Below, in pieces: positions 869-13,883 of a DNA stretch of 64,000 bases. Source of the DNA: Caulobacter mirabilis (GTDB lineage: Bacteria; Pseudomonadota; Alphaproteobacteria; Caulobacterales; Caulobacteraceae); NCBI RefSeq assembly GCF_002749615.1, contig NZ_CP024201.1, forward strand, positions 2,356,001 to 2,420,000, read 5' to 3'. The notes beneath the pieces are model-generated. The model was not told the origin of the DNA and ran no database searches. It saw only the letters and a list, made by a program, of their open reading frames with translations. Numbering within the stretch: position 1 is the stretch's first letter; each line of letters starts with the position of its first letter. The position numbers and the translations under genes were made by a program.

Positions 869-1654
869 GTGATGATGAGGTCGTGGCTGGCGCCGTCATC
901 AAGGCCGCCCATAGAGACCGTCAAGCGGCGGCTGTCCGCTCTCGCCCCCCTCACCGAGGAGGCCGAGAACCTGTTGGGACAGCTGAACGGCCGGCGGTTG
1001 TTCCCAGGGGGCGCCGACATCCTCGGCGAGCCCGGCGAACCGCATAGGCTGTCCTTCATCACCTCGGGCTGGGCGGCGCGCGTCGGACTGCTGCCGGACG
1101 GGCGTCGCCAGGTGCTTGGCCTGCTGCTGCCGGGCGACCCCCTCTACATCGGCCCGCCGACGCCCGGCTTCTCGCCAGGGCCGGCCATGAGCCTGACGCC
1201 GGTGGAGGTGGTCGATGCGGAGTCGGTTCGCGCGGCGGCCATGTCCGGCGAGGCGCGCTGGCGTTGCCTCCAGGACGCGCTTCTGGTCTCCAGCCGCCTG
1301 CACGAGGCCTATCTGCTGGATCAGATCCTCCGGCTCGGCCGGATGAAGGCCTACGAGCGCATCTGCCATCTTCTGCTGGAGCTGCGCGCCCGCCTGATGC
1401 TGGCCGGCCTCAGCAACGGCGGCCGCTTTCACATGCCGCTCACCCAGGAAACCCTGGGAGACACCGCCGGCCTCAGCACCGTCCACGTCAATCGGACCCT
1501 GCAGGCCCTGCGGCGCGAGAACGTCCTGCACCTCCGCTCCGGCGAGGCGACGCTTCTGGACGCCGAGGCCATGGCCGCCGCCTGCGACTACCATGCCCCC
1601 GAGCCGGGCTGGTGGAGCGGGCTGATCACCGTTTCCAGAGCTGGAGCCGCCTAG
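869..1654 (+). CDS. Crp/Fnr family transcriptional regulator (copy 1)
   Basis: A 261-residue one-component regulator. Residues ~20-130 form a cyclic-nucleotide-binding-like beta-roll (LPDGRRQVLGLLLPGD at ~75-90), followed by a dimerisation helix. A winged helix-turn-helix at ~188-225 (PLTQETLGDTAGLSTVHVNR) is typical of the Crp C-terminal domain. There is no N-terminal cysteine cluster, so an oxygen-sensing Fe-S cluster is unlikely; the signal is unknown. The start is ambiguous: GTG at 869 is followed by two in-frame ATGs, with only weak Shine-Dalgarno sequence. It is a paralogue of the regulator at 6122-6907, and the pair brackets the amyloid-like genes. Regulation of those genes is an inference from position. 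Confidence 0.9.
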   Translation: MMMRSWLAPSSRPPIETVKRRLSALAPLTEEAENLLGQLNGRRLFPGGADILGEPGEPHRLSFITSGWAARVGLLPDGRRQVLGLLLPGDPLYIGPPTPGFSPGPAMSLTPVEVVDAESVRAAAMSGEARWRCLQDALLVSSRLHEAYLLDQILRLGRMKAYERICHLLLELRARLMLAGLSNGGRFHMPLTQETLGDTAGLSTVHVNRTLQALRRENVLHLRSGEATLLDAEAMAAACDYHAPEPGWWSGLITVSRAGAA

Positions 1655-1796: not shown

Positions 1797-3080
1797 ATGG
1801 TCACGTCGCGGTCGGCTCTCAGGATGACGCTTCTCGTCTGCACCGCGCTGACGGCGACGCCGGCGCTGGCCGCGGACCCCGCGGTCGAGGCCAGGCTGCA
1901 GCGGCTCGAAGCTCTGGCGGAGGCCCAGGCGCGCCAGATCGCCGATCAGCAGACACAGCTCCGCATCCAATCCGATCAGCTCGCCGCGCAGAACGCCGAG
2001 CTCGCCCGGCTGCGCGAGCCGCAGCTGGCCGACATGGCGGGCCGCGGCGCCCTGCTGGCGCCGGATCAAGCGATGTCGACCGCTCCCCGGGAATACGCTC
2101 AGGTGACGCCGCCGCCCTCCCCCGCGACGCCGCCGCAACCGGTCGGCGCCCCGCCCCCGCCCTCGCGGCCGGTCGAGGTCGCCGCCATTCCGGAACGCTC
2201 GGGCGTACTGACGCCGAAGGGGCAGCTGATCTTCGAGCCCAGCCTCGACTACACGCACGCCTCGACGAACCGGCTCGTGTTCCGCGGCATCGAGATCGTC
2301 ACCGGCATCCAGATCGGCGTCATCGAGGCCAGCGACGCGGACCGCAACGCCGTCGGCGCCTCGATCTCCGCGCGCTACGGCCTGACGGACCGGCTGGAAC
2401 TGCAGAGCACCATCCCCTGGGTGGTGCGCTCGGACCGGGTGACCACCCTGGCCCAACGCGACGAGACCATCACCCGCACGATCGACCTGGACGGCAAGGG
2501 CGTGGGCGACGTCGAGTTCGCCGCCCGCTACCAGATCAACCGCGCCAAGCCCGGCCAGCCGATCTGGATCGCGGGCCTGCGGGTCAAGAGCGACAGCGGC
2601 ACAAGCCCGTTCGAGATCGATCGCGATGAATTCGGGATCGCCAAGAAGCTGGCCACCGGCTCCGGCTTCTGGGCGGTCGAACCGAGCGTCAGCTTCCTCT
2701 TCCCGACCGATCCGATCGTGATCTTCGGCGGGCTGAGCTACCTCTATCACGCGCCCAAGGACATCGACCAGGTGATCGGCGATGTCCGGATCGGCGAGGT
2801 GGATCCAGGCGACTCCATCGGGGCCAACCTCGGCTTCGGCTTCGCCGTGAATCCCAGGTTCTCGTTCTCGCTCGGCTACAAGCACAACTACATCTTCCCG
2901 ACCAAGTCCGAGGTCGGCGACACCAAGCAGAAATCGGAAAGCCTGCAGGTCGGCTCATTCACCTTCGGCTGGTCGTATCGGCTCAACGATCGTCTGACCC
3001 TGACCAACAGCTTCGAGTTCGGCGCGACGGCCGATGCGCCCGACGTCAGGGTCGTGTTCCGGCTGCCCTATCGCTTCTAG
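1797..3080 (+). CDS. FapF-like outer-membrane channel: coiled coil plus beta-barrel
   Basis: A 427-residue protein. The signal peptide (1-26, ends ALAA) is followed by a heptad-like coiled coil (~30-75, many L/A/Q/E), a Pro-rich linker (~100-130) and a C-terminal beta-barrel of alternating amphipathic strands ending in Phe (PYRF). This order (trimeric coiled coil, linker, barrel) is that of FapF, the export pore of Pseudomonas Fap amyloid. The barrel also resembles the broad MetA-pathway phenol-degradation transporter family. The start at 1797 was chosen for AGGAGA seven bases upstream; an open frame continues to 1656 without good support. It converges on the amyloid-like operon ending at 3100. 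The FapF role is inferred from architecture and neighbours. Confidence 0.75.
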   Translation: MVTSRSALRMTLLVCTALTATPALAADPAVEARLQRLEALAEAQARQIADQQTQLRIQSDQLAAQNAELARLREPQLADMAGRGALLAPDQAMSTAPREYAQVTPPPSPATPPQPVGAPPPPSRPVEVAAIPERSGVLTPKGQLIFEPSLDYTHASTNRLVFRGIEIVTGIQIGVIEASDADRNAVGASISARYGLTDRLELQSTIPWVVRSDRVTTLAQRDETITRTIDLDGKGVGDVEFAARYQINRAKPGQPIWIAGLRVKSDSGTSPFEIDRDEFGIAKKLATGSGFWAVEPSVSFLFPTDPIVIFGGLSYLYHAPKDIDQVIGDVRIGEVDPGDSIGANLGFGFAVNPRFSFSLGYKHNYIFPTKSEVGDTKQKSESLQVGSFTFGWSYRLNDRLTLTNSFEFGATADAPDVRVVFRLPYRF

Positions 3081-3099
3081 GAGCCGTTCGTCCGGGGGC

Positions 3100-3684
3100 T
3101 CAGCGCGCAAGCGCCGCCGCCTGGACTTCGTCGGCGAGCGAACGCGCCATCAGGATCTGGTTCATCGCGGCCTGGGTCGCCTCGAAGCCGGGCAGGCCGA
3201 GCGTGATGCTGATATCCTGGCGGAAGTCCCGACCATCGCCCACGTTGACCAACAGGTTTGCAACCTGGCCTTCGGAGAAGCGATGCACGAAGGCCGCCTG
3301 GCCGTCGGGCGTCACATAGAAGCCGCCGTCGCCGAGCGCGCCGGGTCCCAGCTTGATGCCCGCCTGGGCGAGCGCGGCGAGGATCTCCGGCGAGACGTCC
3401 GCCGCCGCTGGCCCCGAATGACTGGTCACCGCCCCCTGCTGGGTCCAGGTCACCTGGCTCTGAAGCACAAGCTGGCCGTTGACGTAGCTGTCGACGACGG
3501 CGCTGAAATCCAGCGCCGTGCCGTCGATCAGGATGAAGCCGCCGCGGTGCTCGTCCAGCTCCAGGTCCGACAGCGCCTCGCCGGCCCAGGCGGGCGACGC
3601 ATCCTGCGGAACAACGGCATCGGCCGGCGCCGTCGCGGCGCTAGCGACCCAGACAAGAGCGGCGATGGAGGCGGACCGGAACAT
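3100..3684 (-). CDS. Secreted protein with double-glycine leader-like motif (operon gene 4)
   Basis: A 194-residue protein with a signal peptide (1-23, ends APADA). Residues 38-49 read LSDLELDEHRGG, an almost exact match to the double-glycine leader consensus (L -12, S -11, E -8, L -7, GG -2/-1) cut by C39 peptidases. The next stretch (FILIDGTALDF) resembles the same position of the protein at 4430-4795. The C-terminal segment NLLVNVGD...ITLGLPG (143-165) resembles the C-terminal module of both other secreted proteins in the operon. It starts eight bases after the C39 peptidase stop; its Shine-Dalgarno overlaps that stop, so translation is probably coupled. Likely a peptidase substrate or fibre accessory subunit; no family name was recognised. 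Confidence 0.75.
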   Translation of the reverse strand: MFRSASIAALVWVASAATAPADAVVPQDASPAWAGEALSDLELDEHRGGFILIDGTALDFSAVVDSYVNGQLVLQSQVTWTQQGAVTSHSGPAAADVSPEILAALAQAGIKLGPGALGDGGFYVTPDGQAAFVHRFSEGQVANLLVNVGDGRDFRQDISITLGLPGFEATQAAMNQILMARSLADEVQAAALAR

Positions 3685-3692
3685 CTTGGGCC

Positions 3693-4433
3693 TCACGGTT
3701 GGGGCACGCTCGAAACGATGAGCGGGGTGATCTGATAGAGCGGGGCCAGCTCGCGGGTCAGGGCGTCGATCGACACCACCTCGTATCCGGCGCCCAGCGG
3801 CGCCGTCGTCTTCGCCTCCCATTCGGCGGCGATGTTGAAGCGGGCGGGCTGCTCCCGGTCATGGATGGCGAAGGCGATGCCGTTCCACATGCTCATGAAC
3901 TCGGCCTCGGGAATCTGATGCAGGCCCAAGGCGGGGTCGCCCAGCAGCACCCAGCCGTCGCGCACGCCCTTCAGGACGACGAAGTGCTTGTAGCTGCCGA
4001 CCTGGATCAGGACGATCGCCGGCGTGTCCATCCGGGCCAACCCTTGCAGGTTCAGCCGATAGCCGTCGGACTGCAGCCCGATCGAGGTCAGGTATCGCTT
4101 CATGTCGAGCAGCGAGAAGCCGACCCGCTGGATCTTCTCCCGGTCGCCGACGGCGTACATCGCGGTGAAGACGTCCTGCTCGGTGGTCGCGCGGCCGTAG
4201 TGGTAGTGGAGAAGGGTCGCCAGAGCGGCCGAGCCGCAGCTGTAGTCGTACTGCTGCCGGACGATCGTCCGGAACGGCATGTCGACCCAGCTGGTCACCC
4301 CCACGACATAGGCCGCGCCGCCCTCCCCGCGAAGCAGGGCCTGGGCGTCGGCCGTCGGCGCGGCGATCAGCGCGCCGGCGGCTGCGAGGGTCGCCGCCAG
4401 GCCCGGCAGGGCGAGGCCGCGGCGCCGGGTCAT
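3693..4433 (-). CDS. Periplasmic C39-family cysteine peptidase (FapD-like)
   Basis: A 246-residue protein. The signal peptide (1-30) ends in ADA, with an arginine-rich start (MTRRRG). The C39 papain-like core follows: oxyanion Gln at ~60, catalytic Cys66 in YDYSCGSAALATLL, His150 in KHFVVL and Asp166 in LLGDPALG. There is no ABC-transporter or membrane part, unlike bacteriocin-processing C39 proteins; this matches FapD, the stand-alone peptidase of Fap amyloid operons. The start codon overlaps the stop of the upstream gene by four bases (ATGA). The two neighbours carrying a Gly-Gly motif are the obvious candidate substrates. Family assignment is secure from the triad; substrate is inference. 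Confidence 0.88.
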   Translation of the reverse strand: MTRRRGLALPGLAATLAAAGALIAAPTADAQALLRGEGGAAYVVGVTSWVDMPFRTIVRQQYDYSCGSAALATLLHYHYGRATTEQDVFTAMYAVGDREKIQRVGFSLLDMKRYLTSIGLQSDGYRLNLQGLARMDTPAIVLIQVGSYKHFVVLKGVRDGWVLLGDPALGLHQIPEAEFMSMWNGIAFAIHDREQPARFNIAAEWEAKTTAPLGAGYEVVSIDALTRELAPLYQITPLIVSSVPQP

Positions 4434-4795
4434 GGCTGCGACAGCGGCGCGCCGAGCACGATGCTGAGATTGATCGCGCTCTGGATGTTGTTCTGGTGGC
4501 CGGTGTTCAGGACGAAATTGCCGACGCCGTCGAAGTTGCTGAAGGCGCCGCCGTCCAGGAAGATCTGGCCGGAGCCGATGGTTCCCGCCTGCATCTGGCT
4601 GCCGTTCACGGCGCCCAGCGTCTGCTCGGTCAGGATGAACACCTCGCCCTGCCCCCCTCGGGAGGCGTCCAGCTGCTCGCCGTCCAAGGGGACCGCTTCA
4701 GCGGCGACCGGAACGGGCGCGGGCGGAGGCGAAGGAAGCTCGGCTGTCGGCGGCTGCTGCAGCACGGCGCCGAAGAGAAGCACGGGAAGGAGCAT
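4430..4795 (-). CDS. Small secreted protein with Gly-Gly motif; possible fibre nucleator (operon gene 2)
   Basis: A 121-residue protein with a short hydrophobic leader and a Pro-rich stretch (~14-30). Residues 37-48 read LDGEQLDASRGG, again a double-glycine leader-like motif. The remainder is Gly/Asn/Gln/Ser-rich and free of Cys: SNFDGVGNFVLNTGHQNN at 86-103, then alternating hydrophobic residues to LGAP. This C-terminal part aligns by eye with residues ~259-293 of the repeat protein upstream (NFAGIQNASFNTG) and with the end of the protein at 3100-3684. Good Shine-Dalgarno GGAGAAGG precedes the ATG. By analogy with FapB/FapE it could nucleate or cap a fibre. Not a named family I recognise. 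Confidence 0.72.
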   Translation of the reverse strand: MLLPVLLFGAVLQQPPTAELPSPPPAPVPVAAEAVPLDGEQLDASRGGQGEVFILTEQTLGAVNGSQMQAGTIGSGQIFLDGGAFSNFDGVGNFVLNTGHQNNIQSAINLSIVLGAPLSQP

Positions 4796-4865
4796 CGACC
4801 TTCTCCCGATCTGAAAAGAAAGTCCGGCCGGCGACGGGTGTCGCCGGCCGGTCTCAAGATGCGAT

Positions 4866-5750
4866 CTACGGTCCGCCGAACGTGACGTTGGCGTTCGCCG
4901 AGATCGAGGTCGCCGCTTGGTTCACCGAGCCGAGGCCGGTGTTGAAGCTCGCGTTCTGGATGCCCGCGAAGTTCATGTACGCGCCGGTCTCTGCGGAGAT
5001 CGAGCCGGTGGACATCTGACCACCCGCGCCGCCGGCACGGTTGAAGTCGTTGGCCCCAAAGGCCACCGCGCTCACCGAGGCGTCGAGGTCCTGGTAGGAG
5101 ACGGTCACCCGCATGTTCGAGAAGTCGATGCTGGTGTTGGTCGTGGTCGTGGTCGTCGAGTTGTCGTTGCCGCTGTCCGAAACGGTCAGATGCGTGGACG
5201 AGTCGCTGTGGATCGAGTTGTCGGTGTTGATCGAGTTGTCGGTCTGGGAATTGTCATTCCCACTGTCCGACACCGCGACGTTCAGGTTGGTGTTCGTCGA
5301 GTTGTCGGTCTGCGAATTGTCGTTCCCAGAGTCGGCGACGTTGACGTTGGTGTTGGTCGAGTTGTCGTTCTGCGAGTTGTCATTTCCGGAGTCGGAAACG
5401 TTGAGGTTGGTCGAATTGTCGGTCTGCGAGTTGTCATTGCCCGAGTCCGAAACCGCCAGCGAGTTGTAGCTGCCGTTCACCGACTTGTCGTTGGCGACAT
5501 CATTGATCCCCAGCGTGTTGTTGCTGTTGGTCTGGGAATTGTCGTTGCCGGAATCCGCAACCGACAGCGAGTTGTTGCTGTTGGTCTGCGACTTGTCGTT
5601 GGCGATGTCCGAGACCGCTACGCTGGTGGAATTGGCGCTCGAACCGTTGGTGGCGTTCGAGCCAGCGTTCGCATCCTGGGCCCAAGCGCCCGAAGAGATG
5701 CAAACACCGAGCGCCGCCGCGGAAACCGCGACCAGATACTTGATCTGCAT
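4866..5750 (-). CDS. Asn/Asp/Ser-rich repeat protein, candidate functional-amyloid fibre subunit
   Basis: A 294-residue protein. The signal peptide (1-24, ends GAWA) is followed by about eight imperfect 18-22-residue repeats at ~43-206, core V(S/A)DSGNDNSQT(D)NS, then a Thr run and a C-terminal module (~207-294) with NFAGIQNASFNTG. Mature protein has no cysteine, almost no lysine or arginine in the repeats, and is extremely polar and acidic. Low-complexity Asn/Gln/Ser repeats of fixed period with a C39 peptidase and a FapF-like pore nearby suggest an exported fibre. The start at 5750 was chosen because GGAGG lies eight bases upstream; an ATG five codons earlier lacks one. It lies first in a four-gene minus-strand operon. 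Amyloid nature is inference. Confidence 0.78.
   Translation of the reverse strand: MQIKYLVAVSAAALGVCISSGAWAQDANAGSNATNGSSANSTSVAVSDIANDKSQTNSNNSLSVADSGNDNSQTNSNNTLGINDVANDKSVNGSYNSLAVSDSGNDNSQTDNSTNLNVSDSGNDNSQNDNSTNTNVNVADSGNDNSQTDNSTNTNLNVAVSDSGNDNSQTDNSINTDNSIHSDSSTHLTVSDSGNDNSTTTTTTNTSIDFSNMRVTVSYQDLDASVSAVAFGANDFNRAGGAGGQMSTGSISAETGAYMNFAGIQNASFNTGLGSVNQAATSISANANVTFGGP
5133..5624 (-). repeat. Tandem coding repeats of the candidate amyloid subunit
   Basis: In-frame repeats of 54-66 bases encoding the SDSGNDNSQTDNS units. The first four are each 18 codons; later ones grow to 20 and 22 codons by insertion of NT or AV. Two units carry a variant core (D-I/V-A-N-D-K-S) alternating with the DSGNDNS core, suggesting an original two-unit period. 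The tract is less GC-rich than flanking genes because of Asn/Asp codons and is likely to be length-variable between strains. Confidence 0.8.
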
Positions 5751-7089: not shown

Positions 7090-8148
7090 ATGGTGGGAAA
7101 CATCGACATCGGCCTCGCCCGCGCCGCGCCTGTTCGCGCTGGCCTGGCCGCCAGGACCGTGGCCGTGACCGGCGGAGCCGGATTCATCGGCTCGCACCTT
7201 TGCGACGCCATTCTCGAGAGCGGCGCGCGCGTCGTCTGCATCGACAACTTCCACACCGGGCGCTGGGAGAACATTCATCATCTGATCGATCGGCCGGGCT
7301 TCGACGTGCTGGAGCACGACATCGCCCATCCCCTGCCCGCCTCGCTCCCGCGGTTCGACCAGATCTACAACTTCGCCTGCCCCGCTTCGCCGGTGCACTA
7401 TCAGTCGGATCGGGTGCGGACGGCGCTGACCTGCGCCCAGGGGGCGATGAACGTCCTAGAGCGGGCTGCCCAGGACGCCGCCGCGGTGCTGCACGCCTCG
7501 ACCTCCGAGGTCTACGGCGATCCCGAGATCCATCCGCAGAGCGAGGACTATTTCGGCAACGTCAATCCGGTGGGTCCGCGCTCCTGCTACGACGAGGGCA
7601 AGCGGTTCGCCGAGACCCTGCTGACCGACTTCGCCGCCCAGGCCGACCTCGATGTCCGGATCATCCGGATCTTCAACACCTACGGACCGCGCATGCGCCC
7701 GGACGACGGCCGCGTGGTCTCCAACTTCGTGACCCAGGCGCTCGAGGGCGAAACGATCACGGTCTATGGCGACGGCGCTCAGACCCGCTCGTTCTGCTTC
7801 GTGGACGACCTGGTCCGCGGCTGCCTGAAGGCCATGAACACGCCGCGCGGCCTGCCCGGGCCGGTCAATCTGGGCAACCCGTGCGAGACCACCGTGGGCG
7901 AGCTGGCTGAGCTGATCGTGGCCATGACCGGCTCGCGCTCGGAAGTCAGCTATCGACCGCTGCCGGTCGACGACCCCCGCCGTCGCCGCCCGGACATCCG
8001 GCGGGCGCGCGAGCTTCTGGGCTGGTCGCCGGAAGTGCCGCTCCGGGAAGGGCTCGAACGCACCATCCACTACTTCATGGGCGAAAGCCGTCGCCTCTAC
8101 GCCCCAGTCGGTTCGGGCGCGGCCATGGCGGCGGCCTCGCCCATGTAG
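7090..8148 (+). CDS. UDP-glucuronate decarboxylase (UDP-xylose synthase)
   Basis: A 352-residue extended SDR enzyme. It has the NAD-binding TGGAGFIGS at 27-35, the family-typical [10 protein letters not shown] at ~95-104, the active-site STSEVYG at ~137-143 and YDEGK (Tyr167, Lys171) within RSCYDEGKR, a signature of UDP-glucuronate decarboxylases. The reaction is UDP-glucuronate to UDP-xylose plus CO2 in the cytoplasm. ATG at 7090 was chosen with GGGAG just upstream; the open frame extends far 5' across the regulator gene and is spurious there. It heads a run with a GT2 and a second epimerase, and its product is the natural donor for a xylose-containing polymer. The 182 bases before it are AT-rich and likely hold a promoter. 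Confidence 0.9.
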
Positions 8149-8181
8149 GCCGAACCACCCCTCAGTCCCTGTGAGGAAGAC

Positions 8182-9612
8182 ATGACGATCCTGGGCTGGA
8201 ACCTTGCCGACATCACCATGACGGGCTTCGTGGCGACGCAGGCGCTCTACACGCTGTCCTACGCCAGCGACCTCTATCTCTACACCCTCCCGGTCAACCG
8301 GGCGGACCTGGAGGAGGAGCCGCCGCCTGTCGGGGCGGATGCGCCGTACATCGTGCTGTTCATGCCGGTCTTGCGCGAGCTGGAAGAGACCATGCGGACC
8401 ACGCTGCTGGCCCTGTCCCGTCTCGACTACCCTGCGCACCGGTACGAGGTGGTCGCCGTGCCGAACGCCGACGACGGCGACATGATCGCCAGCCTGCGGC
8501 GACTGCAGGGCGAGTTCCCGTTCCTGAAGATGATCGAGACCCCGGACACCCGCGACCCGTCCTGGAACATTGTCTGGCAGGCTTGGAACCGCAACCCGAA
8601 GGCCTACTGGTGGCATGCCGGCAAGCGCGCCGGCGATCGCAATCTGCCCCCGAAGAAGACCCGGCAACTGATCTACGCCTTCTATACCCGGGCCCAGGCG
8701 ATCGAGGGCGATTTCCTGGTCAACTACATCGACGCCGACAGCGCCCCGCCGCCGGACCATTTCCGTCGCGGCGCAGCCGGCATGCGCCACTTCGACGTCC
8801 TGCAGGCCGAGAACATCGCCGGTAACCTGAACGACAGCCTGGCCGCCAGCCTGCACGCCTTCGACCATATGGCCTGGGACGGCCGCAAGTACGCCCACAT
8901 GTCCGCCGATGGCCGCCAGCCCTATTGGATGCTGGGCAAGGGGCTGTTCTTCCGCGCCTCCGACCTGATCAGCCTGGGCGGCTTCCATCCGTGGATCACC
9001 ATCGAGGATCCGGAAGTCGGCATGCGCTTCTGGAAGAACGGCAAGCGCCTGGGAATCCTGAAGAACCCGCTGATCGAGGAGGTGCCCCTGACCTTCGGAC
9101 GCGGCATCACCCAGCGGAAGCGATGGGTCTGCGGCTTCTTCCAGTCCCTGACCGCGCCGCTCGACGCGATGGAGTTCACCTTCACCGAGAAGCTGAAGGC
9201 CTGGATGAACTTCGTGCCCTGCCTGATGATGTGGGTGAACGCCCTGGGCATCCCGTTCGGCGCCTGGACGCTGTGGAAGGTGTCCCAGGGGACCGCGGGC
9301 ATGCCGACCTGGGTGGCCTGGCTGGCGGCGATCAACCTGGTCCTGTTCACCGTCTCGATGATCGGGATCTACGTCCACACCTGGAACCGGACCAAGCTGG
9401 TGCTGCCCAGGACCGGCGACCGCATCGCCTACATGCTGCGGGTCAATCCGCTGTTCGTGCTGGCCTGGTGGTTCGTCTGGCTCATCCCGCTGGCCATCGG
9501 TTTCTGGATGTACCTGCGCGACGCGGGCCTGGTCTGGGAACGGACCGAGAAGGTCAACGCCAACGGCGACCTGATCCGGGCCGACACCCAGCGCGCCTGG
9601 CGGTGGTCGTAG
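8182..9612 (+). CDS. Processive-type family 2 glycosyltransferase, membrane-bound
   Basis: A 476-residue protein with one N-terminal hydrophobic segment, a GT-A domain (~54-320) and about three C-terminal membrane helices (~343-368, 378-400, 421-445). It carries the motifs of processive synthases: Asp in NADDGD (~96-100), DAD at 184-186, ED at 275-276 (TIEDPEVG) and QRKRW at 311-315 (Q-x-x-R-W). These are shared with cellulose, chitin and hyaluronan synthases; no PilZ domain is present. Strong Shine-Dalgarno GAGGAA. Set between a UDP-xylose synthase and an epimerase, it probably polymerises a glycan at the inner membrane; the sugar is unknown. Confidence 0.88.
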   Translation: MTILGWNLADITMTGFVATQALYTLSYASDLYLYTLPVNRADLEEEPPPVGADAPYIVLFMPVLRELEETMRTTLLALSRLDYPAHRYEVVAVPNADDGDMIASLRRLQGEFPFLKMIETPDTRDPSWNIVWQAWNRNPKAYWWHAGKRAGDRNLPPKKTRQLIYAFYTRAQAIEGDFLVNYIDADSAPPPDHFRRGAAGMRHFDVLQAENIAGNLNDSLAASLHAFDHMAWDGRKYAHMSADGRQPYWMLGKGLFFRASDLISLGGFHPWITIEDPEVGMRFWKNGKRLGILKNPLIEEVPLTFGRGITQRKRWVCGFFQSLTAPLDAMEFTFTEKLKAWMNFVPCLMMWVNALGIPFGAWTLWKVSQGTAGMPTWVAWLAAINLVLFTVSMIGIYVHTWNRTKLVLPRTGDRIAYMLRVNPLFVLAWWFVWLIPLAIGFWMYLRDAGLVWERTEKVNANGDLIRADTQRAWRWS

Positions 9613-9614
9613 CC

Positions 9615-10772
<1,158 letters not shown>

Positions 10773-10781
10773 TCCGGGGGC

Positions 10782-11873
10782 TCAGCCGTCGTGGGCGCGA
10801 AGGAAGGAATCCCGCATGGCCCAGTACATGGGCTTGCGCGCCAGCCCGGCGTCGTAGGGCAGACCGCGGTTGATCGGGTCCGCGCCGGCCTCCGACAGCC
10901 AGGAATGGCGGTCGCTGAGGCCCCAGGTGACGACACCCCGAACGTTTGGCTGGGCCAGGGCGATGTCGAGATACTGCTGGACCTGGTCCGCCACGCGGCG
11001 GTCGCGCTCGGCGAGCGGCGCCGCCAGATCGTGCTCCTTGACGTCCAACTCGGAGATCACGGCGTAGAGGCCGAGGTCGGCGATCTTGGCGAAGAAGGGT
11101 TCGAGAATCTCGGGCTTGAGCGGCCCCTTGCTCAGATCCAGGTGCGCCTGGACGCCGACGCCGTCCAGCGGCGCTCCCTCGGCCTTCAGGTCGGCCAGGA
11201 GCTTCACGAACCGTCGCCGCCGGGCTTCCTCGACAGGATTGTCGTAGTCGAACCCGTAGTCGTTGACGAGCAGCCGCGCCGTCGGCGCCAGCGACCGGGC
11301 CTCCCGCAGCGCGCGGGCGACGTAGCCGGCGCCCAGCCCGCGATGGAAGCAGTTGCGCCGCAGGCCGCCCTTCCCGCCGACGGTGTCGATCGGCTCGTTG
11401 ACGACGTCCCACTCCTCGACGTCGCCATAGCGTCCGAGCATGGTCTCGAAGTGCCGGCGGATCGGCGACCAGTCGCCCGCGAGGATCTTCGACTTGGCCC
11501 AGGCCGGGGTGCTCTGATCCCAGAGCAGGGTGTGGCCCCTGACCTTCAGCCCGTGTTCACGGGCGAAGCGGACCAGCCCGTCGGCCTGCTCGAAACTGTG
11601 CTGACCGGCATGCCATTCGATGGCGTCCCACTTCATGTGGATCTCGGGGGTAAGCTGCGCGCACTCCCGGGCCAGGGCGGGACCGAGCCCCCGTTCGGCC
11701 TCGATCTGGTCGAAGCGGGCGGCGGCGCCGTAGTAGCGCCCGCCCCGCGCGGCGATGCGCGCCAGCGACGGCGTCGTCTGCGCATCGCTGTCGGCGCCGG
11801 CGCCGAACGGCTTGAGAAGAGCGGCGGCGGCGACGCCCGCGAGGACGCCGCGTCGCGGCAGGGTGAAGGTCAT
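10782..11873 (-). CDS. GH10 glycoside hydrolase (endo-xylanase family), Tat-like signal (copy A)
   Basis: A 363-residue protein with an N-terminal twin-arginine-like signal (LPRRGVLAGVAAAALL), then a GH10 TIM barrel: KWDAIE (~81-86), RGHTLLW (112-118), WDVVNEP with acid/base Glu160, and SELDVKE with nucleophile Glu275. WGLSDRHSW near the C-terminus is also typical. GH10 enzymes cut beta-1,4-xylan-type chains. The gene is divergent from a second GH10 (start to start ~90 bases) and convergent with the epimerase gene. The Shine-Dalgarno before the chosen ATG is weak. It may trim the glycan made by the neighbouring synthase, or degrade plant xylan; the two cannot be separated from sequence. Confidence 0.9.
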   Translation of the reverse strand: MTFTLPRRGVLAGVAAAALLKPFGAGADSDAQTTPSLARIAARGGRYYGAAARFDQIEAERGLGPALARECAQLTPEIHMKWDAIEWHAGQHSFEQADGLVRFAREHGLKVRGHTLLWDQSTPAWAKSKILAGDWSPIRRHFETMLGRYGDVEEWDVVNEPIDTVGGKGGLRRNCFHRGLGAGYVARALREARSLAPTARLLVNDYGFDYDNPVEEARRRRFVKLLADLKAEGAPLDGVGVQAHLDLSKGPLKPEILEPFFAKIADLGLYAVISELDVKEHDLAAPLAERDRRVADQVQQYLDIALAQPNVRGVVTWGLSDRHSWLSEAGADPINRGLPYDAGLARKPMYWAMRDSFLRAHDG

Positions 11874-11963
11874 GCGCTGGTCCCGGAAGCCTCGACCACG
11901 CCCCTGCATAGCCGAGTCGCGCTTAAGACCCGGTTCACGGGCGAGCTGACCCGGCGCGGCCTG

Positions 11964-13058
11964 ATGACCGCCGCCGCCGCGCTCGCGGCCAGCGCGCCGT
12001 CGTCGACGGCGGACAGTTCGATGCGGGCGTCCATACAGAAGGCTGCGGTCGCCGGCGGCCGCTTCTTCGGGGCGGCCGCACAAATCGGATACATCAACGC
12101 GGAACGGGACCTCTACGACGCCTTCATACGGGACTGCGGCTGTCTTACGCCGGAAATTGACCTCAAATGGGCGACGAACGAACCTTCGCCCGGAAGCTTC
12201 GATTTTCGCGCCATGGACGGGCTGGCGCGGTTCGCGTCCAGGACCGGCATCCGCCTGCGCGGCCATACCCCGGTCTGGCACCGCAGCATACCGCCCTGGG
12301 CGGAAGGGCCGCTGGCCGACGCCGACTGGCGTCCGGTGGGGCGATACATCGCCGCCACGCTGCGGCGGTTCCCGACGGTCGAGGAATGGGACGTCGTCAA
12401 CGAGCCGATCGATACCGGCAAGCGGATGGACGGGCTTCGCGAAAGCCCGTTCCTGCAGGCGTTCGGCCCAGGCTACATCCAGCGCGCATTGGAGGAGGCC
12501 CGCGAGCACGCCCCGCGGGCGCGGCTGATGATCAACGAGTTCGGGCTGGAGTACGACACGCCCGAGCACCGCGACCGGCGCTATCTGCTGCTCAAACTGG
12601 TCGAGCGCCTCAAGCGCGTCGAGGCCCCGCTCGACGGCGTCGGGCTGCAGAGTCACCTCAGGCTCGGCTACGGCCCGTTCTCGCAACCTCAGTTCGCCGC
12701 CTTCCTGCACGAGCTGGCGCAGTTCGGCGTCGCCATCACCCTCACCGAGCTGGACGTGAAGGAGGAAGCCTACGCCGCGCCGGCGGAGACGCGCGACCAG
12801 GCGGTGGCCGACGCGGTGCGCGCCTACCTCGACGTCGCCTTCGCCGAGCCCCGCGTCGGCGGCCTGCTCTGTTGGGGCCTGAGCGACCGCCACTCCTGGC
12901 TGGATCTCACCGAAGAGGACTGGAGCCGGCACGCCGGCGCCTGGAAGCCCGGCGAGGGACCGGGCTTCAATCGCGGGGCGCCGCTGGATGCGGCAATGCG
13001 CCCCAAGCCCATGTATCGCGCGATACTCCAAGCATTCGCCCAGGCCCCGCGGCGATAA
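11964..13058 (+). CDS. GH10 glycoside hydrolase (endo-xylanase family, copy B)
   Basis: About 364 residues from the first ATG. The GH10 barrel has KWATNEP (~69-75), RGHTPVWH (99-106), acid/base Glu147 in WDVVNEP, nucleophile Glu262 in TELDVKE and WGLSDRHSW near the end. A twin-arginine-like pair (LTRRGLM) lies immediately upstream of this ATG in frame, implying the true start is further 5'. No ATG, GTG or TTG is available in the ~60 bases back towards the divergent gene, only CTG codons, so either a CTG start is used or the leader is degenerate. Same fold and order as copy A at 10782-11873, with clear divergence. Confidence 0.88.
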   Translation: MTAAAALAASAPSSTADSSMRASIQKAAVAGGRFFGAAAQIGYINAERDLYDAFIRDCGCLTPEIDLKWATNEPSPGSFDFRAMDGLARFASRTGIRLRGHTPVWHRSIPPWAEGPLADADWRPVGRYIAATLRRFPTVEEWDVVNEPIDTGKRMDGLRESPFLQAFGPGYIQRALEEAREHAPRARLMINEFGLEYDTPEHRDRRYLLLKLVERLKRVEAPLDGVGLQSHLRLGYGPFSQPQFAAFLHELAQFGVAITLTELDVKEEAYAAPAETRDQAVADAVRAYLDVAFAEPRVGGLLCWGLSDRHSWLDLTEEDWSRHAGAWKPGEGPGFNRGAPLDAAMRPKPMYRAILQAFAQAPRR

Positions 13059-13175
13059 GTCCAAGATTTCGCGAGTTCCGGACGGGATGTCTCATTTGAC
13101 AAGGATCGAGACGCACTGCATGCCAAGGTTCGGGGAACGCGGAAATCTTCCCACCGCGACGTGGAAGGAATGCTC

Positions 13176-13883
13176 ATGGGTACTCGTTCTTCGTCGGGCG
13201 TCGCTCTGGGAGCGGTCGCCTTGCTTTCCAGTCTCATTCCTGTTGCGGCCCAGGCCCGTGAACAAGGCGTCGTCTACGCCAGCGGCCTGGTGAGCGACGA
13301 TCACTCGGCCAGCGTCGGCGCGACCATCGCCGCCCCGGGCAGCCGGTTGGGCGAGGGTTGGGCGTTCCGAGTCTCGGTCAACGGCGGCGACTACAGCTAC
13401 GACAGCGGCCCGCTGAACATCGACGCGGACTATCGCGGAGCCGACGTCGCGATCGTCTATCAGTGGTCCGGCGACTGGGGCTACGGCAACGTCGCCCTCG
13501 GCGGCCGCTACGCCGACACCGACCTGTCGCCGGCCGATCCGGGCAACCGCCGCGGAGGCTCCAACTGGGACGTGGCCCTGACCGTGGACGGGCAGCGGCG
13601 CTTCGGTCCCTGGGCCCTGACCGGCTACGCCTCCTACGGCTTCGACCTGGAGGAGTACTACGTCCGCGCCGACCTGACCCGGAAGGTGTCCCCGTCCGTC
13701 GCGCTTGGGGTCGAGATCGGCGCCGAAGGCGACAGCGGCGACTACAGCCGCCAGGTCCTGGGGGCCGTCGCCCGCTTCGAGTCCCCCGGCCGGCCTTGGG
13801 CGGTCAAGCTGGCGGCCGGCGTTCGCGACGGGGACGACGACAACAGCGCCTATGGCGCGATCACCGTGTCGAGGACCTTCTGA
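13176..13883 (+). CDS. BcsS-like outer-membrane beta-barrel protein
   Basis: A 235-residue protein: signal peptide (ends AQA), then repeated amphipathic strands ending in Phe. The opening YASGLVSDDHSASVGATIAA, followed by PGS and GWAFRVS, resembles the cellulose-biosynthesis accessory BcsS family of alphaproteobacteria. It begins at 13176, where AAGGA lies six bases upstream; two earlier in-frame start codons lack this. It follows the GH10 gene by ~118 bases. In context it could help a polysaccharide pass or attach at the outer membrane. Family call is by recollection of sequence style only. Confidence 0.65.
   Translation: MGTRSSSGVALGAVALLSSLIPVAAQAREQGVVYASGLVSDDHSASVGATIAAPGSRLGEGWAFRVSVNGGDYSYDSGPLNIDADYRGADVAIVYQWSGDWGYGNVALGGRYADTDLSPADPGNRRGGSNWDVALTVDGQRRFGPWALTGYASYGFDLEEYYVRADLTRKVSPSVALGVEIGAEGDSGDYSRQVLGAVARFESPGRPWAVKLAAGVRDGDDDNSAYGAITVSRTF

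Follow-up and report, generated by a model that had tools for sequence, protein, structure and literature searches.

Gene content and organization of the locus

The window analyzed here, a stretch of 64,000 nucleotides of Caulobacter mirabilis (contig NZ_CP024201.1), contains at positions 1797-5750 five genes of a predicted export system related to the Fap functional amyloid system of Pseudomonas. Four genes lie on the minus strand and are transcribed in the order P0005, P0004, P0003, P0002: P0005 (4866..5750), the presumed major fibre subunit with a signal peptide, consisting of repeats and a conserved C-terminal module; P0004 (4430..4795), a small secreted protein with a double-glycine (GG) leader and one fibre-type module, a candidate FapB-like nucleator; P0003 (3693..4433), a stand-alone FapD-like C39 peptidase with a predicted signal peptide and the triad C66-H150-D166; and P0002 (3100..3684), a secreted protein with a GG leader, designated FapE-like from its match to the E-like profile. 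The genes of P0003 and P0004 overlap by 4 nt. The gene of P0001 (1797..3080, plus strand), designated a FapF-like outer-membrane barrel with an N-terminal helix from its FapF matches, lies tail to tail with that of P0002, the two ends being 19 nt apart. The positions of all five genes and the convergence of the operon on the barrel gene, proposed in an earlier sequence-only reading of this DNA, were confirmed; gene calls and signal peptides come from our own scripts or were made by eye.

P0001 matches the NCBIfam FapF model at 1.8e-36 (125.8 bits) and, in a phmmer search of PDB sequences, FapF 5o67 at 6e-25 (residues 133-427); the FilC model also matches it (4.3e-22, 79 bits). The AlphaFold model of P0001 comprises a long N-terminal helix, a predicted coiled coil, at residues 28-86 (1878..2054, plus strand), followed by a strand-rich C-terminal part. 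The block-mean predicted local distance difference test (pLDDT) score of the helix is 71-86 over residues 31-70 and lower at both helix ends. The top 18 Foldseek matches of this low-confidence model, which was built from a 2-row alignment and has a mean pLDDT of 49.1, are FapF crystal chains, a result taken as supporting only. P0003, a protein of 246 residues in which only C39 models were found by Pfam, matches the FapD model NF058616 at 1.7e-45 (155 bits) and also the FilB model at 1.3e-42 (146.1 bits). Its Cys, His and Asp at positions 66, 150 and 166 are kept in 40/40 aligned C39 proteins from 38 of 42 loci, and the predicted signal peptide points to a periplasmic location. The kinship of the peptidase with FapD and of the barrel with FapF, suggested by the sequence-only reading, is thus borne out by strong homologies.

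Distribution of the gene set and its relation to Fap

Matches to the FapF model were sought in a sample of relatives and in genomes of the class and the phylum, and P0001 was used as a query in genomes of the family. FapF-type matches were found in 1/61 genomes of the relatives sample, namely, the window's own genome, in 27/385 genomes of the class and in 42/398 genomes of the phylum. With P0001 as the query, 36/299 family genomes were found, the own genome counted, belonging to 10 of 22 genera; 29 of these 36 matched at E below 1e-50. For analysis of the gene neighborhood, 40 regions were taken from 81 listed places (31 in the class and 50 in the phylum, some genomes being in both), and 20 held-out family loci were drawn from the 35 other matching genomes, among the stronger barrel matches.

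The C39 gene is present in 27/30 non-Fap regions around FapF-type matches (L080-L109) and absent from L081, where the barrel has stops, L091 and L106. Apart from L107-L109, classed here as Fil-type and set aside from the counts, 24 regions remained, of which 23 contain a P0002-like gene (exception L089) and 22 a P0004-like gene (exceptions L080 and L089). The profiles used include most of the counted members; leave-one-out profiles, restricted to mature parts and with near-identical partner loci also removed, recover 25/25 P0002-like proteins (E <=1.7e-3; 24 at <=7.9e-5) and 24/24 P0004-like proteins (E <=1.5e-7), the sets including the window's own protein and two identical copies from L099. 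Two proteins, L080|4 and L089|6, neither of which shows a leader, were removed from the P0004-like set (26 to 24), and L109 was removed from the downstream set (36 to 35). In the window's own family, C39, P0002-like and P0004-like genes were found beside the barrel in 20/20 held-out loci, none of which had contributed to the profiles; the major gene was found in 17 of them. The genes co-occur, in an arrangement that exceeds chance. No Pfam or NCBIfam name was obtained for the scanned P0002-like, P0004-like and repeat proteins.

The orientation of the pore gene relative to the C39 gene varies. It is convergent in 16 of 25 loci, on the same strand in 7 and divergent in 2; these loci are the 24 regions and L002, a contig of a metagenome-assembled genome of Pseudomonadota with C39, P0002-like and convergent barrel genes, the C39 gene lying at the contig end. 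In the 20 family loci, the pore is convergent in 13 and on the same strand in 7. A duplicated block of a small protein, C39 and P0002-like genes occurs in L099:4554-8970, where the copies of the P0002-like and P0004-like proteins are identical. The pairing of fapD and fapF is not itself new, since homologues of both genes side by side in five further phyla are already reported in passages of PMC6173800. The literature basis for Fap and C39 peptidases throughout is parts of PMC5557850, PMC3792158, PMC6173800, PMC12822426, PMC6173795 and PMC10233263.

Scores of the window proteins lie far under the equivalog cut-offs, both for Fap (P0001, 125.8 vs 700 bits for FapF, NF058560; P0003, 155 vs 330 bits for FapD, NF058616) and for Fil (P0003, 146.1 vs 475 bits for FilB; P0001, 79 vs 630 bits for FilC). 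Models of FapA, FapB, FapC and FapE gave no match at E up to 1 among the five window proteins. In the control, the NCBIfam models flag L113 as a fap operon, with FapA, FapB, FapD, FapE and FapF above cut-off and FapC at 164 of 195 bits. In the barrel tree of 41 rows, from which L081 and the second L096 fragment were left out, 10 Fap rows form one clade (support 99/97), and the window lies within a separate Fap-like clade of 27 rows (support 95/89), closest to L084 (51% identical), L105 and L088. The barrels of L107 and L108 fall outside the Fap-like clade, as does L091, a long branch beside L109. Fap-type and Fap-like loci occur together in genomes G183, G515 and G467: the tree contains one region of either kind from G183 and likewise from G515, and G467 has the Fap-like region L098 in the tree and, elsewhere, matches of Fap strength to FapF (5.8e-112) and FapE (4.1e-24). 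Fap and Fap-like are accordingly separate systems, because both are present in these three genomes.

The locus of the window has genuine Fap kinship, yet is not a Fap operon. The Fap-type interpretation of the sequence-only reading is consequently divided. An export locus of the FapD/FapF type with a convergent pore stands, given the strong homologies, the co-occurring genes and the frequency of convergence (16/25 and 13/20). Identity with a fap operon whose subunits have diverged beyond recognition does not: both scores are below the FapF and FapD cut-offs, the barrel is outside the Fap clade, and the subunits are found by family profiles.

Fap-clade loci were also found in the window's own class, in three genomes (G205, G303 and G183). 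The loci L110, L111 and L112 contain genes of the FapB, FapC, FapD, FapE and FapF types. They lie outside the classes named in PMC3792158, a 2013 survey in which Fap was confined to Beta-, Gamma- and Deltaproteobacteria. No Fap of Alphaproteobacteria was found in the literature search, which covered titles, abstracts and passages with few subscription papers or preprints among them.

Leaders, subunit modules and the hairpin

The classical consensus of C39 leaders comprises L at -12, E at -8, L at -7 and G at -2 and -1. Leaders of the LxxxxLxxxxGG type, each preceded by a predicted Sec signal, were found in P0002, LSDLELDEHRGG (3538..3573, minus strand) with F at +1, and in P0004, LDGEQLDASRGG (4652..4687, minus strand). 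Cleavage by C39 peptidases after GG or GA is described in passages of PMC10233263 and PMC5557850. Among 25 P0002-like proteins, all 25 have L or M at -7, R at -3 and F at +1, and 24 have G at -1; the search required G at -2, the score favoured L/M, R and G and ignored +1, and this first-pass score was fitted to the same set on which it was scored. In the held-out family loci, [LM]x4GG was found in the first 120 residues of 20/20 P0002-type proteins (18/20 in the stricter form), compared with 10/186 control genes of the same loci under the identical rule (7/186 stricter). Controls searched over whole proteins gave 36/186 (strict 11), and those of 150-320 residues gave 9/89 (strict 5). A profile without the leader selects the same 20 P0002-type genes (E <=0.0071; 19 at <=3.4e-13), and P0002 matches the E-like profile, built without it and from mature parts only, at 6.4e-18.

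In 24 P0004-like leaders, position -1 is mainly G (13) or R (8). P0002 is predicted to be cut at its GG leader by the periplasmic C39 peptidase P0003; by leader sequence it is a firm candidate substrate and P0004 a probable one, ranked below P0002 because P0004-type leaders are weaker and degenerate in 10/20 loci. Another type of small secreted protein, which combines the motif V[IT]LWD[ED] with an RG or GR site resembling a leader, occurs near some Fap and Fap-like loci (L118|15, L118|10, L119|16, L080|1 and L096|12).

At the place of the leader, FapE contains [LIV]x[DE]x[EV][LM]xxx[RHT]G[RK][YF], present in 21/21 full FapE matches from 20/398 phylum genomes (the partial L141 was dropped, 22 to 21); E at -8 and R at -3 each occur in 19 of them, and position -1 is R in 15 and K in 6. 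The search pattern required [LMIV] at -7, [RHTNQ] at -3, G at -2, [GRKT] at -1 and F/Y at +1; these classes were preset, and therefore only the spread within them counts as a finding. An hhalign comparison of the P0002-like family with the FapE family over leader plus N-terminus gave an alignment of 34 columns at 93% (P 2.7e-7). According to passages of PMC5557850, FapD acts in the periplasm, secretion of FapC needs the catalytic Cys of FapD, and FapE was the sole Fap protein without N-terminal peptides by mass spectrometry. The FapD substrate is given as undetermined in parts of PMC5557850 and PMC6173800; a passage of a 2025 review (PMC12822426) goes no further than supposing that FapD processes the N-terminus of FapE and a part of FapF. 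Titles, abstracts and passages, including few subscription papers or preprints, contained nothing decisive on a FapD-FapE cleavage site. By the logic applied to the Fap-like relatives, FapD is predicted to cut FapE next to the conserved RG[RK] site, and the textbook leader at the matching place in these relatives makes the question of the FapD substrate experimentally approachable.

The body of P0005 is composed of repeats of the DSGNDNSQT type of about 18 residues (N 18%, S 18%). The repeats noticed in the sequence-only reading are real, forming tandem arrays (unit lengths 60 and 54 nt) within 5223-5618. The last 45 residues (4869..5003, minus strand) represent the conserved C-terminal module, defined by 53-69% identity to 16 family relatives with differing repeat bodies; in the 17 family repeat proteins, the window included, the median pairwise identity of this part is 59% (L161, of 66 residues, was left out of the identity figures), and the repeat bodies differ, with runs of DSGNDNSQT and DNSDNST at one end of the range and TDDSYNT repeats at the other. 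A profile built from the C-termini of 25 repeat proteins, P0005 not among them, matches P0005 at 5.7e-10.

By family profiles, the C-terminal module of P0005 is common to P0004-type proteins. A profile made from the mature parts of P0004-like proteins, with the window left out, matches P0004 at 1.4e-14 and P0005 at 1.6e-4, as well as 6/10 FapB proteins of C39-bearing Fap loci (2.4e-7 to 5.6e-4) and the long repeat proteins L085|12 (28 matched stretches) and L082|6 (11). With this profile, the best decoy E was 0.54 for reversed proteins and 0.014 for a three-fold shuffled set; the mature part of P0004 and the tail of P0005, each shuffled 500 times, gave at best 0.019 with the P0004-like profile and 0.058 with the C-terminal profile. 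In the reverse direction, the FapB profile matches some P0004-like proteins (best 3.9e-5) and P0004 only at 0.047. At the level of sequence profiles the subunits are thus recognizable, P0004 and the P0005 C-terminus with FapB and P0002, which also takes the place of FapE, with the N-terminal module of FapE. The repeat protein encoded in L085:12604-18999, whose gene runs past the end of the region, is at least 2131 residues long and matches the fibre-type module about 28 times.

A perfect GC-rich stem of 12 bp with a T-rich tail is located 3' of the P0005 gene, between P0005 and P0004 (4824..4851, minus strand). A perfect stem of at least 10 bp after the major gene was found in 12/22 loci, compared with 22/260 same-strand gaps and 56/605 other genes in controls; in the family loci, it was found in 12/17, compared with 24/218 other genes. 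Over the entire region, 3 terminator-like sites were counted against 2.8 expected, no excess over chance. The hairpin may be an attenuator (brake) or an mRNA stabilizer favouring the major subunit. This hairpin, the GG leaders of P0002 and P0004 and the shared C-terminal module go beyond what the sequence-only reading had described.

Proposed mechanism, alternatives and adjoining genes

The locus probably encodes an export system for surface fibres that is Fap-like without being Fap. P0005, P0004, P0003 and P0002 would cross the inner membrane by Sec, as their signal peptides indicate. Soluble periplasmic P0003 would then cut the second leader, of the double-glycine type, off P0002 and probably also off P0004, a step proposed because of the leader register, the gene context and the intact triad. 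Leader cleavage would license export through the FapF-like barrel P0001. P0005 would be the major subunit, its repeat body free to vary and its C-terminal module probably held for export or assembly; P0004, with a leader and one module, is the likely nucleator, and P0002 a likely initiator or anchor of the FapE type. The hairpin 3' of P0005 may ensure that the major subunit is made in excess.

Several points weigh against this interpretation. The barrel model of P0001 is weak (mean pLDDT 49.1), and that of P0002 (pLDDT 31.7, 2 rows) was useless and was discarded. P0004-type leaders are degenerate in 10/20 held-out loci (GG in 6 and GR/GK in 4, assigned by eye), and the signal peptide of P0004 carries no positive charge. 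Without the leader, mature P0002-like proteins fail to match FapE (hhalign 2.6%), P0002 scores no better than 0.013 against the FapE profile in a search of two sequences, and position -1 of FapE is R or K instead of G. The FapF linker has also been proposed as a FapD target, in a passage of PMC5557850.

Secretion of a soluble, non-fibrous surface or matrix protein by FapF/FapD-type machinery is a rather unlikely alternative, to which the acidic, repetitive and hypervariable body of P0005, with its amyloid core unproven, and the polysaccharide genes adjoining the locus lend some weight; the cargo modules, however, match FapB, a fibre subunit. That the locus is a genuine fap operon, merely diverged, is very improbable and largely refuted already. 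It shares with Pseudomonas Fap (fapABCDEF) the FapF-type barrel with an N-terminal helix, the C39 peptidase that carries a signal peptide, secreted subunits (FapB-like among them) whose modules are related, and a FapE-type protein with a leader-like site. Unlike Pseudomonas Fap, however, the window belongs to a separate clade, its proteins reach only 125.8/700 bits for FapF and 155/330 bits for FapD, no FapA, FapB, FapC or FapE model matches, and the major subunit is not recognized as FapC. In addition, GG stands in the window where FapE has R/K at -1, the Fap-like pore gene is often convergent, and both types of locus are present in G183, G515 and G467.

A Fil-type putative pilus system has very little probability. 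The C39 peptidase and the barrel are related to FilB (1.3e-42) and FilC (4.3e-22), and FilA-like proteins carry L[AS]x[VI]TGQ in the same register in 5/5 readable loci of 8 Fil loci, all five from one bacterial family; a FilA-like gene lies upstream of C39 in 5 of the 8, only its end in 1, and none is there in 2. Both scores, however, are far under the FilB and FilC cut-offs, the barrels of L107 and L108 are distant in the tree, outside the Fap-like clade, and no P0002- or P0004-type gene was found in the three Fil-type regions (L107-L109). Scarcely probable, too, is a microcin or bacteriocin exporter, whose GG-leader peptides would be secreted antibacterials processed by C39. GG leaders with C39 are a hallmark of class II microcins (in passages of PMC10233263), and leader type and catalytic triad are the same as in their C39-ABC export. 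Unlike that system, the window peptidase is free, predicted to be periplasmic and to act after Sec, with predicted Sec signals preceding the leaders; no ABC transporter domain was found in P0003, whose 246 residues match Pfam C39 models only. The P0004 module is common to the repeat protein and FapB, and no immunity-like protein was seen among ten scanned flanking proteins, no search having been aimed at immunity proteins.

Under the preferred reading of a Fap-like export system for surface fibres, a widespread sister system of Fap with hypervariable fibres is thereby defined. There is about an even chance that Fap-like, Fap and perhaps Fil constitute one class of outer-membrane secretion systems in which cargo is addressed in two steps, first by a Sec signal and then by a leader of the double-glycine type that a free C39 peptidase cuts in the periplasm, at GG, GR/GK or GQ, ahead of passage through a FapF-type pore, with FapE, cut at RG[RK], as the FapD substrate. 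In the Fap-like branch, an export module fixed at the C-terminus together with an almost freely evolving fibre body would then provide a natural display scaffold.

A search for FNR/CRP boxes over the whole window with up to 2 mismatches gave 24 matches, from which nothing was concluded, and the GC content of the locus gave no usable sharp edge. Two genes of Crp-type regulators flank the locus on the plus strand, one adjoining the barrel gene (869..1654; PF13545 1.7e-14) and one divergent from P0005 (6122..6907; PF13545 4.3e-15, PF00027 6.8e-8), and both may have a part in it. Adjoining the locus, the stretch 7090-13883 contains genes of two epimerases, a group 2 glycosyltransferase and BcsS, and two GH10 genes, which suggests a polysaccharide or matrix region.

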